35,992 nucleotides of DNA, from positions 1-35,992 of the IMG/VR virus record IMGVR_UViG_3300027972_000033. One strand, written 5' to 3'. Below, one piece after another: positions 3,585-31,487 of the stretch. The notes below the pieces were generated by a model that was not told where the DNA came from, did not search any database, and saw only the letters and a list, made by a program, of their open reading frames with translations. Both the position numbers and the translations under genes were made by a program. The stretch's first letter is position 1, and every line of letters starts with the position of its first letter. This DNA comes from a virus.

Positions 3585-3600
3585 TTCTTTTTTAACTATT

Positions 3601-4440
3601 TTATAAAAGCTGTCCGTTGTCAACTTTTTCGGCAGGCTTTTCTGCTTTCACTTCCTGAGGCTTTGCTACTGGGATAATGTCAGTACCATCCTCCGACATG
3701 ATAACAGGGAAAGCCTCGTCAATAGTTGTATCCCCGTCTTTGATTGCATTTTTCAGTCCAGACAGAATCTCAAGATGCTTCCCGCAGATTTCTTTGAACT
3801 CTGTCACGCCGATTGCAACGAGTACACGTTGAGGGTCAATGCCAAGTTTTTTAATCCATCCTGTTGCAAGTTCGCGCCGCTTCTCCAGCGACTTCCCATC
3901 ACCGAACAGCATATCACGGACAGCCTTCTCAACTGGCTTGCAAAGGGCGCGTGGCACGACTTTGAATATCGCGTTACGTTCTGCCTTCGCACAAGCTACA
4001 GAGGCCATTAATGCACGTTGCCGCTCGCTGTATGGCTTGCCGTTCTTATCAACGGTTGATTCTTTATGTTCTGCCGACTTGCGAACGTTCTTTTGCAGGT
4101 CGTGGCAAACTCCCTGCGCGATAACGTATCTGTCTGTCTGCTCGATAATACGCGCACCGGAAATGAGATTTCCATAACAGGCCGAAACGATTTCAGCCAT
4201 ACGAATACTCATGCCCTCTGCGTTTTTACCGCCGCCGACTGGACGAGAATATAGGCATGATTCTGCCACTTCCTCATCCTGCGTTGCCAAGTCCGTCGAA
4301 TCGCGCTGGAACTCAACAATGCTCCTTGGATACGTTTTTGCAGTTACGATCTGCATATCAATGGCGGCTTTTTCAAGTACCATCAATGCGCTTCCAGTGA
4401 TAACTTCCGGTTCATATACTTCTACTTCATTCTCACTCAT
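3601..4440 (-). CDS. probable single-strand annealing protein (recombinase), 279 aa
   Basis: Lies directly upstream of the exonuclease. The middle contains RPVGGGKNAEGMSIRMAEIV and SERQRALMASVACAKAERN, which I associate with a phage recombination-protein family of the Erf/Sak/RecT functional class. The acidic, Pro/Lys-rich tail (residues 250-279) is typical of proteins that contact ssDNA-binding proteins. Its role would be annealing of single strands made by the exonuclease. The class is inferred from context and general resemblance, so the exact family is uncertain. ATGA overlap with the upstream small gene. Confidence 0.6.
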   Translation of the reverse strand: MSENEVEVYEPEVITGSALMVLEKAAIDMQIVTAKTYPRSIVEFQRDSTDLATQDEEVAESCLYSRPVGGGKNAEGMSIRMAEIVSACYGNLISGARIIEQTDRYVIAQGVCHDLQKNVRKSAEHKESTVDKNGKPYSERQRALMASVACAKAERNAIFKVVPRALCKPVEKAVRDMLFGDGKSLEKRRELATGWIKKLGIDPQRVLVAIGVTEFKEICGKHLEILSGLKNAIKDGDTTIDEAFPVIMSEDGTDIIPVAKPQEVKAEKPAEKVDNGQLL

Positions 4441-20251: not shown

Positions 20252-20393
20252 TTGTTCCGAACCTTTCCCATTGATAAAGCCATGTCTTGCCGCACGAAAC
20301 GCACTCACAAAGACCGTCACCACGGAGCGCAAACGATACGCTTCCGCATTTGCAGACGATTGCTCTTTCGCTGTCTGGTGTTAGGTCGGTCAT
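20235..20393 (-). CDS. zinc-ribbon mini-protein (52 aa)
   Basis: Starts in an ATGA overlap with the stop of the minor head gene. Two CxC/CxxC pairs (CKCGS and CECVSCGKTW) make a compact ribbon. It is similar in style to the Cys-rich mini-proteins near the left end. Function unknown. Confidence 0.65.
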   Translation of the reverse strand: MTDLTPDSERAIVCKCGSVSFALRGDGLCECVSCGKTWLYQWERFGTNGNNG

Positions 20394-22066
20394 TTGCTTA
20401 CGCCTTCGATATAAACGGACTGGGTGTGGATGCAGTTACTTGACAAGCACCCGTTAGCCGTGTATAGTGTGCTTAAAGATTGGAGATCATAAACATGGCC
20501 ACTATAAGAACAGACATCGACATTGACCACGCTATCAGCCTCTATCAATCCGGCATTGGCTACTATGAAGTCGGAAAGTTGCTTGGAGTTAGCCCGCCCA
20601 CAATCAGAAGAAGATTTGTTTCCGCAGGAATAAATATCAGGAGCCAAGGCGAACAGCTCAGGATTACTCAAGAACGACGCGGTGCTGAATGGAGACTCGC
20701 AAACACCGCCAAGGCTCACGATGCGGTTCGTGGCATGTGCCGCACCCAAGAGGATAGAGAAAAGAGGGCTGTTACGCGCCAAGCCAAACAACTTGGAATC
20801 AGCGGAAGCGAAACCAGCCTTTCCGAATGGCTCCGTCTTAAATTGTCCTGCGACGTTATTCAGCAGAAGGCGGTCGGAAGCTATAATATCGACATTGCTA
20901 TTCCCGAATTTTCCATCGCCGTGGAAGTGTTCGGAGGTAACTGGCACTTGTGCGGAAAGCACGCCGCCATACTTCCCAAACGCCATGAATATATCCTCAA
21001 TCGTGGATGGCTTCCGGTCTACGTCTGGACAACTAAAGCCAAGCCTATTTCCTTCAATGCGGCGCAGTACATTATCACCCTTTGCGAGCGTATGCGCGGC
21101 GGCGAATCCTTGATCGGTGAGAAGCATGTGATTTGGGGTAACGGTGAGCGTATTACCACTGGCATATTCAATCTTGACAACCTCGCCTGAATACTCAAAA
21201 CGATAAGCCGCCGTCATGTCAGGGCTTTCAACCATCGTTTCAGGAACGCAACAATTCGGATGAAAAAGCCCATCCGCAATAGCATCATCGAGCGAACCGT
21301 ACTTGTCAGACGTTCCGCTAATGCTCAAAATCTCACCCTCATACGGTATGCAAGGCGAATCAGGGTCAGAGCTTTTGCCTTCAATCCTAACAAGGTCTAA
21401 TCCGCTTTCAACCATCGTATCGATAAACGTTTCGCGCGCCACCGTGTTATGAAGCGTCCGGTTCAGCATCCCGAAATAAGAATCCGTGTTCCATGTCTTG
21501 CCGCCCTTATCGACAAACTTGAAGGCCGGTTTAATCTCTGCCGCCCGTTGCTTCATCTCTGCTGACATTTCTTTGTAATTCATGCCGGTCAATGCACCCT
21601 TGCGAATCACATCAGAAACCGCCGTCCTGATTGCGCGTATGTCCTCGGTCATCATGCCGCCAATGCGCGCGTTCATAGCAACCCTGCCGCCAACCGTCGA
21701 AGGATTGATTTTGCCGATTATGTCATTCAGATACTTCTTTGAGAATTGCCCGAATGTAACACCGGCAACGGAAGCCGGAAGGTCATCAATGGCAAGAGCG
21801 TGCCAAGCCTTGGAAACTACCGTTGCGCGTTGCTTTGTCCAGTCATCAACCCCACGGTTCAGCTTTACATACTCATCAGCAATGCCTTTATAAAGTCCGT
21901 CCCTGATTACCGCCGCCCGTACAAAGTCGCCACGGTTTGTTGCTTCAATGATTTTGGCTTCAATATCGCGCCGCGCTTCTGCCGTGATCTTTAAAATCTG
22001 CCGCTTGCCCTGCTCGGTTTGTGCCAGCAAGAGCTTTTCGCGGGCTTTGCCGGACAGCTTTGCCAT
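20390..22066 (-). CDS. minor head protein (Mu gpF/SPP1 gp7 type) containing an intein (558 aa precursor)
   Basis: Residues 1-271 and 545-558 are the host protein. It is a helical head morphogenesis protein whose conserved part includes RTLHNTVARETFIDTMVE, CIPYEGEILSISG and GLFHPN. The family's HPNCxH motif is completed only after splicing (HPN joined to CIH). Residues 272-544 are the intein. Spliced product: 285 residues, a normal size for a short member. It follows the connector gene. Minor head proteins of this family are few-copy capsid components acting in DNA ejection or head assembly. Confidence 0.85.
   Translation of the reverse strand: MAKLSGKAREKLLLAQTEQGKRQILKITAEARRDIEAKIIEATNRGDFVRAAVIRDGLYKGIADEYVKLNRGVDDWTKQRATVVSKAWHALAIDDLPASVAGVTFGQFSKKYLNDIIGKINPSTVGGRVAMNARIGGMMTEDIRAIRTAVSDVIRKGALTGMNYKEMSAEMKQRAAEIKPAFKFVDKGGKTWNTDSYFGMLNRTLHNTVARETFIDTMVESGLDLVRIEGKSSDPDSPCIPYEGEILSISGTSDKYGSLDDAIADGLFHPNCCVPETMVESPDMTAAYRFEYSGEVVKIEYASGNTLTVTPNHMLLTDQGFAAAHTLAKGDNVLRRIEGNRLGFSCPDVDRKPSTIEDIFMAFGKYGGVLSAQVPVTSEHFHGDGKFGNSNVDIIASDRLLLNNVAGQFKTEPFGKAGFASADSKLFGLARNSPLFSILLGAAHATNRIVSLGGVCESPFSTASFLSNPELFALAPDIYSCGNKSSSDCGRANSKQLSDFIVANAGLIEADSVVNVDVCSYSGHVYDLQSLSTLYTANGCLSSNCIHTQSVYIEGVSK
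20440..20468 (+). promoter_or_regulatory. sigma-70-type promoter for the nested endonuclease
   Basis: TTGACA at 20440-20445 is a perfect -35 box, followed by 17 bases and TATAGT at 20463-20468, five of six matches to TATAAT. It lies on the + strand within the codons for the last residues of the intein, 26 bases before the endonuclease ATG. It is the best promoter match I found in the window. Confidence 0.7.
20495..21190 (+). CDS. Vsr/EDxHD-type homing endonuclease nested antisense in the intein (231 aa)
   Basis: Start at ATG 20495 with GGAG nine bases upstream. Residues 11-44 form a helix-turn-helix (AISLYQSGIGYYEVGKLLGV then PPTIRRRF), as in resolvase/homing-enzyme DNA-binding tails. Residues 105-180 match the Vsr-like nuclease fold of the EDxHD homing endonucleases: Glu111 in SLSEWLRLKL, Asp133 in YNIDIAIP, Glu144 in IAVEVFGGNWH, His151, then KRHEYILNRGW and VYVW. 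It would cut intein-less alleles. It lies wholly inside the intein coding region on the opposite strand, in exact codon register. Confidence 0.85.
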   Translation: MATIRTDIDIDHAISLYQSGIGYYEVGKLLGVSPPTIRRRFVSAGINIRSQGEQLRITQERRGAEWRLANTAKAHDAVRGMCRTQEDREKRAVTRQAKQLGISGSETSLSEWLRLKLSCDVIQQKAVGSYNIDIAIPEFSIAVEVFGGNWHLCGKHAAILPKRHEYILNRGWLPVYVWTTKAKPISFNAAQYIITLCERMRGGESLIGEKHVIWGNGERITTGIFNLDNLA

Positions 22067-23132: not shown

Positions 23133-23163
23133 AATGTTTCTCCTGTTTGGTTTGTCAAATATC

Positions 23164-23184
23164 GGGCGGTTTGGATTCCCGCCC
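23164..23184. other. intercistronic hairpin, copy 3
   Basis: GGGCGG and CCGCCC are separated by 9 bases, 7 bases after the capsid-gene stop and 32 before the next ATG. No T-run follows in the gene direction, so it is more likely an RNA-stability or processing hairpin than a terminator. Confidence 0.45.
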
Positions 23185-23191
23185 TTTGTCA

Positions 23192-24046
23192 TTAGGCAAT
23201 GACGGTTTCGTTCAGGTTAACGTCAATGCTGACTGCCGGACGGTAGGTCTTGATACCGCCGATGGACAGGATGCGCTGACCGTCTGCGATTCGACCTTCG
23301 AGCCGCAGTTTTTCGTCAGTGATGATGTCGTTAGCGAGCGCAATGGAAGTCCCCATAACGCCAGCCAAGCCGTGAGTAACGCTCGAACCAGTAACGAGGT
23401 TGTTCGAAATAAACACGTTCACGCCGAACATTTTGCCGCGATAGTTCGCGTTCATAACGTAGTCGTCAGACATAACGCTCGACGGGCCTTTGTTGCCAAA
23501 GTACATCGTGATTGCTTCTTCAATTTCAGGAGGAACAACCGCGTAGATGTCGCCGCGAGGGGCATTAGCTTTTTTGAGCTGACGAACGATTGCGCCAAAC
23601 AGTTGCGGAATGTTTGCCGCCGTGGTCGCTGTTACCTGCCAGGGGGTCGTGCCGGTTGCGTAGGAATCAAGTCCGGCGTTGGCGTATTCTGCCATAACCA
23701 GCGCATCCCAGTAATCACCCATCTGATAACCGGCATCAGTTACGACTTCGGTCATTTTTTCGATGGAAGTTTTGGCACGAGCAGCATCTTCACGTTTAAA
23801 CGCCACGTAACGGGCTTTGTCGATTTCCAGCTTCTGGCTTGAATCGGTAATGTCCTCATACGTGATGTTGTCATCAGTGTACTCTTTGTCGGTCAGAGTG
23901 CTAACGCCAACGATGTTCAGCGTGTCGCCCTTGCCCCATACTTCCTGCTTGAACTGCGAATTACAGATCATAGCACCAACGAGGTCTTTACGAAGACCAG
24001 CCAACGCAACTTGCGTCCACATTTCACCATAGATAGTTTCAGCCAT
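23192..24046 (-). CDS. major capsid protein (284 aa)
   Basis: HK97-fold capsid candidate of the P22-coat-like branch: VWGKGDTLNIVGVSTLTDKE, ITYEDITDSSQKLEIDKARY and FKREDAARAKTSIEKMTEV match the strand-helix pattern of that group. It directly follows the scaffold gene. Size and order (portal, scaffold, capsid) fit. Confidence 0.8.
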   Translation of the reverse strand: MAETIYGEMWTQVALAGLRKDLVGAMICNSQFKQEVWGKGDTLNIVGVSTLTDKEYTDDNITYEDITDSSQKLEIDKARYVAFKREDAARAKTSIEKMTEVVTDAGYQMGDYWDALVMAEYANAGLDSYATGTTPWQVTATTAANIPQLFGAIVRQLKKANAPRGDIYAVVPPEIEEAITMYFGNKGPSSVMSDDYVMNANYRGKMFGVNVFISNNLVTGSSVTHGLAGVMGTSIALANDIITDEKLRLEGRIADGQRILSIGGIKTYRPAVSIDVNLNETVIA

Positions 24047-29123: not shown

Positions 29124-30329
29124 TTATTTTGTGCTTTTTCTGGCTTTCTTTATATCAAGCCATTTTCCATACGCTTCTGATTTAGGCTGTACTTGACCAA
29201 GCCCTTTGCACCAATAGTCATTTCTCAGAAGAACCTTGCACATTCTGCGCCATGAAGGAGCCCAGCACTTGCTTTCAAGCTCTTCCGGAGCCTCTTCTGG
29301 TATTGAAGTATACCCTCTGTCATGCCATCCTGAAATGAATTTTTTAAATCGCAATCTGTAATGCTCTCTAGTCTTTGCTGGCATTGTTTGAAGAAGAAAA
29401 TTGCAGTAGCTTTTCCAGCTATGTCCATCCGGTTTAAAAATCTTATTATATCCGGTCATGTTTCCGTTTTCTTTTATGTATAAAGCACCAGAGTTTGCCC
29501 CATTGACACGCGCAATAAGCTTATACCATGTGTCCGGCTCAAGAATATGATACAGCCAAAGACCCCTTCTCTGATCGTCTCCGTATGGCTGGCAAAGCCG
29601 TTGCTGGCTTATTTTTACACCAGCCATTTGCATTTTATCATAGATGCCGTTGTGTAGCTTTTCAGGAAACTTTCCGTGATAACGCCAGATGTCTTCTGTT
29701 TTCCAGTCATAGATTGGATAGGCGTTATACACGTTACCGATGATCTTTGTTGTCCAGATATAGTCCTTGAACTGACGATCTTTCTTTTCCCATGTAGCAA
29801 TTGCACAATAGCGATGGAGGCTTTCGTCTGCTCGTATTCCGATAAAGGCCGCACACTCTTTTCCTTCTGAATACCACTCTCCGAACAGAACCATAAACTC
29901 TTCAAACTCCATCTTAGGTATGAAAAATGGGAAGTCTTTTTCTGTTTTAGCGCAATCTGGCTTTTGTCTAACCCATATTTCTTTTTTATCTTCATCCCAG
30001 CAACACCAGCGAGGCTCAAAGTTAGTAACCGCATTACGAAGAAGAAGAGGAACGCAAGTCCAGAACAGCTCTATGTTGTCTTTGTAAAAATCCTTCATAG
30101 CTGTAATATGTTCGATCGTATCAGAATATTGAGCCTCAAGGTCAATAACTAGAACGCCTACCTTTCTATTCCTTTTGATTGCCTCATCCATAACCAAATG
30201 GAGCATTACGGAACTGTCCTTGCCTCCAGAAAAGCTGACATATATTTTTTCAAATGAGTCAAAGATTTTAGAAACTCTGTCTCTAGATGCATCCAAAACA
30301 TTCTGCTGTTTATATTTCTTTACCTGCAT
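29124..30329 (-). CDS. PAPS-reductase-like ATP pyrophosphatase, IbrA/DndC-like (401 aa)
   Basis: The nucleotide-binding SGGKDSS loop (SFSGGKDSSVMLHLV, residues about 34-48) marks the PP-loop ATPase family (PAPS reductase/DUF3440). Further features are IGIRADESLHRY and YPIYDWKTEDIWRY, shared with the sulfur-handling DndC/IbrA group. The next gene upstream is a ParB-like IbrB homologue, the known partner. The reaction in phages is unsettled. A sulfur- or nucleotide-modifying role or regulation is possible. Confidence 0.85.
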   Translation of the reverse strand: MQVKKYKQQNVLDASRDRVSKIFDSFEKIYVSFSGGKDSSVMLHLVMDEAIKRNRKVGVLVIDLEAQYSDTIEHITAMKDFYKDNIELFWTCVPLLLRNAVTNFEPRWCCWDEDKKEIWVRQKPDCAKTEKDFPFFIPKMEFEEFMVLFGEWYSEGKECAAFIGIRADESLHRYCAIATWEKKDRQFKDYIWTTKIIGNVYNAYPIYDWKTEDIWRYHGKFPEKLHNGIYDKMQMAGVKISQQRLCQPYGDDQRRGLWLYHILEPDTWYKLIARVNGANSGALYIKENGNMTGYNKIFKPDGHSWKSYCNFLLQTMPAKTREHYRLRFKKFISGWHDRGYTSIPEEAPEELESKCWAPSWRRMCKVLLRNDYWCKGLGQVQPKSEAYGKWLDIKKARKSTK

Positions 30330-30338
30330 TTTATACCC

Positions 30339-31487
30339 CTAGTAAATTGTTGACTGTCTATCCGGCATACCGCCTTCAAGGTTAACCTCTTCCATGCTGT
30401 TTGCAGTAAGCCATTTGTTAAGATACTCAAGAGCTATTTCATTTGCTTTTGACTGCTGTTCTTCTGTCAAAAGATGGTATCCGGCTCTGAATGTACTTGG
30501 TATTCCAGAGGCATAGCACAGAGAGGCTTGACCGAGCCACGCAATGCGGTTCATAGAGGCGTTTGTAAGATAATGCTCGCAAGAGTGTTTCCATTCCGTA
30601 ATTACTCTGTTAAGCGCAGACCGGAACCGCTCTTCGTCTGAAAGAAAGTTTTTATATTCCTCTTCGCATTGATCTTTTGTCATTGTTGGGTGTGTCGCTG
30701 AATAGAATCCGGCCTTATGACATTCCCACTTGTCAAAGGTATGGAAAATACGCTTTTCGTCGCTGGTGTTAACTGTGCGAAAGCCATACTTTTCTTTTTC
30801 TTCTTCATCTACCAAATCATCAAGCGGAACAAAAACAGAATCGGGTTCTGAATCTGAAATATCCCATGACTTTGAAAAGTCCTCATCCTTGAATAATCCG
30901 GCAAGTCCGGTGATCTGGCAAAGACGTAAAACCTCATCCTCTTCCATGCCAAGCTCACGGGCTATGCGCTCGTTTTTCCAGTTACGGTTTTTAAGCTCAA
31001 TAACAATGTCGCTCATGGCTTTTACGGTATGCTTTCCTCTGGCTCGATTGTGACGAATCGTAGAGGCCATACGGTCGTTTTTGCTCTCACGCTCATAGTT
31101 TATTGTCACCACTGGCAGATAACCCAAAACTCGTTCCTGAATGTCCTTACACTCCTTTCCTACTCGGTTACGGTGGAACCCGTCGATAACCTCTCTAGTA
31201 TCGTTCTCTTTTTTCATCGTAACGATAGGCTGGGTGTAACCGTCGCTTGCAATAGAAACCCTCAAAAGTTCCATTTCTGGAGGAGCTACGCAGTTAGGGT
31301 TATAGTCATTCGCCTCAACCGAGGTGTTTTTTACCCACACAACGCAGTCAACAGGTTCTTTATTGAACGGGCTATGCTTGCTCAATTCAATACGTATTTC
31401 GTTTAATTCTGATACTCTATCGTTAATGTCTAGCGAATCTAGATGGCTAGTGATTGTTTTTAGATAGTTTTCTATTCTGCTATTCAT
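30339..31487 (-). CDS. ParB-like, IbrB-type protein (382 aa)
   Basis: The N-terminal ParB/sulfiredoxin-like domain carries the EVIDGFHRNRVGKE box, the DGxHR motif also seen in DndB. It is followed by a helix-turn-helix-like part (ELKNRNWKNERIARELGMEE, about residues 170-190) and a helical C-terminus. Encoded immediately before the PP-loop gene, forming the IbrB-IbrA order. It probably acts with that protein as CTP/ATP-dependent regulator or modification partner. Confidence 0.8.
   Translation of the reverse strand: MNSRIENYLKTITSHLDSLDINDRVSELNEIRIELSKHSPFNKEPVDCVVWVKNTSVEANDYNPNCVAPPEMELLRVSIASDGYTQPIVTMKKENDTREVIDGFHRNRVGKECKDIQERVLGYLPVVTINYERESKNDRMASTIRHNRARGKHTVKAMSDIVIELKNRNWKNERIARELGMEEDEVLRLCQITGLAGLFKDEDFSKSWDISDSEPDSVFVPLDDLVDEEEKEKYGFRTVNTSDEKRIFHTFDKWECHKAGFYSATHPTMTKDQCEEEYKNFLSDEERFRSALNRVITEWKHSCEHYLTNASMNRIAWLGQASLCYASGIPSTFRAGYHLLTEEQQSKANEIALEYLNKWLTANSMEEVNLEGGMPDRQSTIY

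Follow-up and report, generated by a model that had tools for sequence, protein, structure and literature searches.

Large inteins of the canonical kind, such as the VMA inteins and the PI-MtuI RecA intein, combine a HINT splicing domain at both ends with endonuclease information in the middle of the insert, and they interrupt a conserved protein at a conserved residue. Their nuclease is a domain of the intein itself, read in the same frame and usually of the LAGLIDADG or HNH type. A different arrangement, the fractured genes of Dassa et al. 2009, reportedly consists of split inteins with free-standing EDxHD genes between the two halves. The endonuclease domains of inteins have been described as nested at one conserved site (PMC6801210). 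Antisense homing-endonuclease genes are known from nuclear group I introns (Dir.S956-2, I-DsqI), where they lie opposite the strand of the splicing element and are thought to be expressed from their own promoter (PMC9548176). Finally, an insertion in a phage methylase gene is open in the host frame and hides an HNH gene in another frame, without splicing domains (PMC11855218).

The locus described here lies on a 35,992-base virus record (the window, i.e. the whole stretch of DNA that was analysed) carrying a minus-strand structural operon of terminase, portal, capsid and minor head genes; also on the minus strand, a phage-borne PAPS-reductase-like gene adjoins a ParB-like gene (29124-30329 and 30339-31487). 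Like the canonical large inteins, the insert in its minor head gene has splicing domains at both ends, mid-insert endonuclease information and a conserved insertion residue, but the nuclease is a separate protein encoded on the other strand. It shares a nuclease superfamily with the fractured genes, whereas here the intein is contiguous and the coding sequences of nuclease and intein are superimposed on opposite strands. The group I intron hosts are ribozymes, so their antisense inserts need not stay open, while in the present case the strand opposite the nuclease gene has to stay open as one uninterrupted frame. The methylase insertion, in turn, differs in that its HNH nuclease is a same-strand, out-of-frame reading of the same transcript and that no splicing domain was detected. 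Our literature search, which did not cover preprint 10.1101/2025.01.02.630785, found no intein with an antisense endonuclease, in keeping with the first-pass annotation, which knew of no contiguous intein arranged in this way. That 2025 preprint, cited in PMC11855218 and dealing with actinobacteriophage inteins of 'non-canonical architecture', may bear on this point and may describe some of the Gordonia or Mycobacterium members discussed below.

We consider it very probable that the locus is a mobile intein with a homing endonuclease (HEN) encoded antisense to it. Both reading frames and their register, selection on the plus frame, the splicing residues, empty alleles and an enrichment of expression signals are observed; splicing, expression, the cutting site and homing are inferred. 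The minus-strand features are as follows.

20390..22066, minus strand: minor head ORF (MuF-like, Phage_min_cap2) of 558 aa, interrupted by the intein; matches PF06152 (E 3.9e-13) and PHROG minor head families
21254..22066, minus strand: N-extein, residues 1-271, ending in ...GLFHPN; from alignment to the intein-less allele L076
20435..21253, minus strand: intein, C272-N544, 273 aa; supported by C1, TPNH, GHVY, the terminal N, the +1 Cys, 105 distinct relatives and an empty allele
20390..20434, minus strand: C-extein CIHTQSVYIEGVSK plus stop; corresponds to CIHTTIVYTPEGKK in L076
21128..21139, minus strand: block B, TPNH, antisense to the VIWG codons of the HEN C-terminus; its T and H are present in all 46 of the inteins aligned
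20432..20548, minus strand: C-terminal splicing region of the intein, blocks F and G with the +1 Cys; from conservation and an AlphaFold2 confidence mostly above 80
20558..20875, minus strand: intein residues 127-232, a predicted disordered linker and antisense shadow of the HEN gene; pLDDT mostly below 50, amino acid changes in the middle close to neutral expectation

Residues 1-272 of the ORF match minor head families and the residues beyond match intein families, the insertion point being HPN|C. The boundaries are fixed by the intein-less sequence L076, which is 63% identical in the N-extein and runs across the junction: it reads ...GLFHPN-CIHTTIVYTPEGKK-stop, i.e. ...GLFHPNCIHTTIVYTPEGKK-stop, where the window reads ...GLFHPN-[intein]-CIHTQSVYIEGVSK-stop. 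The intein and ORF coordinates of the first-pass annotation proved exact to the base. Its suggestion to compare alleles with and without the insert was also borne out, as L076 and the junctions of Guernseyvirinae phages both indicate that removal of the intein leaves an intact host gene. With the joined exteins of phage vB_StyS-sam as query, uninterrupted alignments to many intein-less Guernseyvirinae phages are obtained, while other members of this group, e.g. Snoke, carry the intein.

The residues expected of a splicing-competent intein are largely in place. Across a 46-row alignment, the nucleophile Cys1 is invariant, as are T39 and H42 of the block B TxxH motif; block F reads GHVYDL, and the C-terminal Asn is followed by the +1 Cys (...SSN|C). 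The penultimate His of block G is absent from the window intein, which has Ser there, and is present in many relatives; this His is not obligatory in all inteins. Matches of the single sequence to intein families are weak (PF14890, E 3.6e-6, under the curated cut-off; TIGR01445, E 7.6e-5), yet the profile of the minus-strand protein family clearly matches inteins of known structure (2jmz, 1.3e-10; 2imz, 1.6e-9). An AlphaFold2 model of the intein is confident at its two ends, of intermediate confidence over residues 81-130 and below a pLDDT of 50 over most of residues 127-232; compared with intein structures by Foldseek, it reaches E-values down to 5.7e-5 and meets the criterion for a HINT fold. 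No division into two genes was seen in the window or its relatives, all of which have a single continuous frame, so the fractured-gene criterion of a split intein is not met.

The weak single-sequence matches and the lack of splicing data would also fit a broken head gene, in which a nuclease gene has inserted into a dead minor-head ORF and the minus reading is meaningless. We hold this to be highly improbable, given the conservation of Cys1, TPNH and the terminal Asn/+1 Cys, a minus frame that stays open throughout the family and minus-type constraint at its ends. For an active intein, the head gene would be transcribed from the minus strand, and the Hedgehog/intein splicing domain formed by both ends of the insert would excise it and join HPN to CIHT.

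Opposite this intein, and entirely within its coding sequence, lies the putative endonuclease gene.

20495..21190, plus strand: HEN gene of 231 aa, starting at ATG and ending at TGA, its codons in register with those of the minus ORF; from family comparison, selection, 3R3P profile match and AlphaFold2 model
20522..20644, plus strand: helix-turn-helix domain, HEN residues 10-50; PF13384 (E 4.7e-4, below cut-off) and AlphaFold2 helices with pLDDT of about 95
20804..21031, plus strand: Vsr/EDxHD-like nuclease core, HEN residues 104-179; 3R3P profile match and Foldseek matches to 3r3p and 1vsr
20891..20893, plus strand: codon of D133, kept in 105 of 105
20924..20926, plus strand: codon of E144, kept in 105 of 105

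A 231-codon plus-strand gene fully inside the intein had been proposed at the outset, and family comparison upholds it. The family profile of its product matches 3R3P, the catalytic domain of I-Bth0305I (E 3.6e-6), as well as 3hrl, such that profile searches now connect each of the two products to an expected family. The AlphaFold2 model (mean pLDDT 88.8) comprises a helix-turn-helix, linker helices and a nuclease core, and 3r3p and 1vsr are among its best Foldseek matches (prob 0.99 and 0.95, but E of about 0.03). I-Bth0305I and Vsr (1VSR, 1CW0) thus share detectable homology and a similar predicted core fold with the HEN; identity is low, however, and here the core is joined to an N-terminal helix-turn-helix and to an antisense intein. 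Among the 105 distinct inteins, R163 is kept in 103 and E106 in 100, alongside the invariant D133 and E144, whereas H151 is found in only 70, and its correspondence to the HD pair of the published E-D-x-H-D motif is not established. The initial description as a helix-turn-helix plus Vsr/EDxHD nuclease is therefore supported by homology to I-Bth0305I and Vsr, although not every EDxHD signature residue could be checked, and the protein is best called an EDxHD/Vsr-like, predicted two-domain nuclease with inferred cleavage activity.

Could the plus frame be open merely by chance? Position 1 of each plus codon faces position 3 of a minus codon, which means that a stop on one strand reads TTA, CTA or TCA on the other. 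The HEN gene contains none of these codons, against 7.1 expected from phage codon usage (P 3e-4). Long in-register antisense frames do exist over other genes of the window, reaching 216 codons over the capsid gene, and this leaves room for a chance open frame antisense to the intein. We nevertheless find that explanation scarcely credible in the face of a flip in codon-position bias, purifying selection on the plus frame, invariant catalytic residues, the nuclease profile match and the expression signals. The frame over the major capsid gene, in which this 216-codon run lies, is a 231-codon open frame on the plus strand (23147-23842), largely antisense to that gene and with no evidence of being a gene itself.

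The flip is apparent in pairs of relatives, where extein and splicing ends vary mostly at minus third positions and the middle at plus third positions. For L064 and L065, for example, substitutions at minus positions 1/2/3 number 2/0/39 in the extein, 3/0/13 in the splicing ends and 45/11/28 in the middle. Measured against random placement of the same changes, plus amino acid changes amount to 0.47-0.71 of the neutral expectation and minus changes to 0.84-1.20, meaning that an absence of purifying selection on the plus frame, which would have refuted the original proposal, is not upheld. A column-by-column two-way test places plus constraint over codons 20-225 and minus constraint at both ends, and finds both strands constrained around block B, where TPNH faces VI[R/W]G of the HEN. 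Constraint specific to the minus strand amounts to 0.06-0.31 bits per column through most of the middle, against 0.6-1.0 for plus. This switch from minus-type to plus-type bias indicates that the plus gene is under purifying selection and the intein middle mostly passive. One internal island stands out:

20912..20923, minus strand: HGDG island, opposite the residues just before the catalytic E144; minus residues conserved beyond plus codon choice (z 10-33) in the column-by-column test

Part of the middle is, consequently, not a pure shadow. Together with the intermediate model confidence over intein residues 81-130 and a comparison of the window with L001 (plus changes 0.67 of expectation, minus 0.84), the island keeps alive the idea that both strands are fully functional over the whole overlap, the intein middle being a selected domain for splicing or homing and the two readings conserving each other. 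The predicted disorder of residues 127-232, the nearly neutral minus changes in most pairs and the low minus-specific constraint in most of the middle speak against such mutual conservation, which we judge unlikely without dismissing it. Instead, comparative and modelling data support a middle that is largely a passive antisense reading and, over most of its length, no second functional protein. At the position taken in ordinary inteins by the in-frame endonuclease domain, the minus reading would be a mostly unselected, probably disordered linker because the same bases code for the separate plus-strand gene. The notion of a single mobile element with splicing protein and nuclease on opposite strands is thus supported, with the qualification that the intein middle is largely passive and that homing and splicing have not been demonstrated.

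Relatives were collected by scans with single sequences, a consensus and motifs, since conservation was nowhere high enough for alignment-based scans. Baiting with the nuclease recovered 48 IMG/VR loci, of which 47 have an antisense intein, always in the same register and with an open minus frame. A second bait comprised only the first 62 residues of the consensus, i.e. the N-terminal splicing domain, which avoids circularity, and here an antisense nuclease was present in 78 of 80 viral loci, again all in register. The antisense gene accordingly tracks the intein, and this check for homologous inteins devoid of an open plus frame, the other potential refutation, did not overturn the proposal. 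The motif EVFGGNWH alone, used as a third scan, recovered essentially the same contigs, and a scan of genome contigs added only two clear members (L198 and L200). In total, 105 distinct inteins show the same two-strand layout, some of them retrieved by the splicing domain alone; among the carriers are phages of Salmonella, Escherichia, Gordonia, Mycobacterium, Pseudomonas, Haemophilus, Vibrio, Klebsiella, Edwardsiella and Rhodococcus. The records that were looked at carry no annotation of the nuclease except for a partial hypothetical ORF in vB_StyS-sam.

The nuclease frame is interrupted in only two of the 105 (L149 and L152). Both inteins keep intact ends; L149 is shortened and contains stops, and L152 has one internal stop. 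Owing to the in-register overlap, indels that shift the nuclease frame would disrupt the head protein as well, and we hypothesize that this double damage may contribute to the rarity of decayed nucleases. Record MG969409 (L056), which has a broken frame and is flagged UNVERIFIED, was left out. Salmonella records whose tblastn match ends at HEN residue 150 were considered as pseudogenes and rejected, the two examined (L054, L055) being open. Likewise, Edwardsiella phage MSW-3 and Rhodococcus phage REQ3 were rejected as nuclease-free relatives, as both contain the nuclease. The REQ3 intein (L117:1113-2891) has an apparent Ala instead of Cys at its start, and the nuclease antisense to it apparently has no N-terminal helix-turn-helix.

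Candidate expression signals for the nuclease gene are found within the codons of the splicing motifs.

20440..20468, plus strand: sigma-70-like promoter, TTGACA-17-TATAGT, within block G codons; 11 of 12 positions match, -10 element enriched across the family
20482..20485, plus strand: Shine-Dalgarno sequence GGAG, within block F codons; enriched across the family relative to codon redraws
20495..20497, plus strand: HEN start codon ATG, which on the minus strand reads CAT, the codon for the block F His; CAT in 57 of 60

Expectations were derived by redrawing synonymous codons from each locus's own usage in 66 lineages of less than 40% identity. Of these 66, 30 have a Shine-Dalgarno match 5 bases or longer, where 8.1 ± 2.4 would be expected, and 28 have a perfect TATAAT, against an expectation of 4.2 ± 1.8; the 57 CAT codons among the 60 divergent inteins having the block F His compare with 28.0 ± 3.7 expected. 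Such enrichment over synonymous redraws indicates that codon choice in the splicing motifs serves the opposite strand. Because the lineages share ancestry, these counts are not fully independent, and in some members the ATG or the promoter is missing from its usual position. The plus gene would therefore have its promoter, ribosome-binding site and start codon all antisense of blocks F and G; its transcription is inferred and is probably independent of the late operon.

In nearly all members, the insertion point in the MuF-like head protein is a single conserved site, HPN|C or an equivalent, often followed by R-C. In Escherichia phage fEg-Eco06 (L057:2114-3007), the element interrupts this head protein elsewhere, at a second site (TST|CRARDG), and the HPNC site is empty. 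In the virus Rctr197k (L060:2501-3385), it sits in a deaminase-like PCVA|CAKRL motif of a protein annotated as head morphogenesis, the deaminase name resting on the PCxxC motif only. Between L053 and L069, the intein is 94% identical and the extein 74%, as lateral transfer predicts. The contigs L074 and L075 are mostly 95-100% identical until about 190 bases before the insertion site and then diverge sharply (~3600-3797), which resembles the edge of a conversion tract, but L075 ends there.

Two relatives of the nuclease are free-standing, L036 (L036:4986-5663) and WHB31326.1 of Acinetobacter phage P1068 (L205:2312-3205). Both genes converge on the 3′ end of intein-less head genes and lie within or close to the target site; that of L036 overlaps the last head-gene codons, HPN|C included. 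That the antisense frame is intrinsically open in this nuclease family was considered and rejected: the frame corresponding to the intein reading contains 9 stops in L036 and 12 in P1068, so its openness belongs to residence in the intein. In the tree, L036 falls inside the intein-borne set beside L125 (98/91), which is why it is not claimed as ancestral; judged by this placement, it may be an escapee rather than an ancestor.

A helix-turn-helix plus a nuclease core is compatible with other roles, and in the absence of cleavage data, the plus gene might be real without being a homing endonuclease, for instance if it encoded a phage nuclease or regulator whose overlap with the intein is incidental. 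This we regard as quite unlikely, considering its near-constant pairing with an intein at a conserved head-gene site, the existence of intein-less alleles together with lateral transfer, the homology to the intron-linked I-Bth0305I domain and the free-standing versions adjoining the same site. As a homing endonuclease, the protein would cut intein-less head-gene alleles at or near the conserved HPN|C, although the cut site is unmapped, and repair from the occupied allele would copy the whole element.

We tentatively propose, at somewhat short of an even chance, that the family amounts to a large class of two-strand mobile elements that has so far gone undescribed. In this class, splicing-motif codons would also act as the promoter, ribosome-binding site and start codon of an antisense nuclease, and at least one stretch inside the overlap, HGDG opposite the catalytic strand, would have residues that matter on both strands. 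The locus is a natural example of one mobile element with two of its functions encoded on opposite strands of the same bases, and this pairing has been kept across phages as divergent as Jerseyvirus and those of Gordonia, Mycobacterium, Pseudomonas and Rhodococcus. The members of the family form a well-sampled set for studies of sense-antisense coding, and they illustrate how genome annotation hides such antisense genes. Free-standing nucleases beside empty head genes are possible intermediates in the pairing of endonucleases with splicing elements. With expression still inferred, intein mobility would gain a promoter of its own, independent of the late structural operon of the phage.
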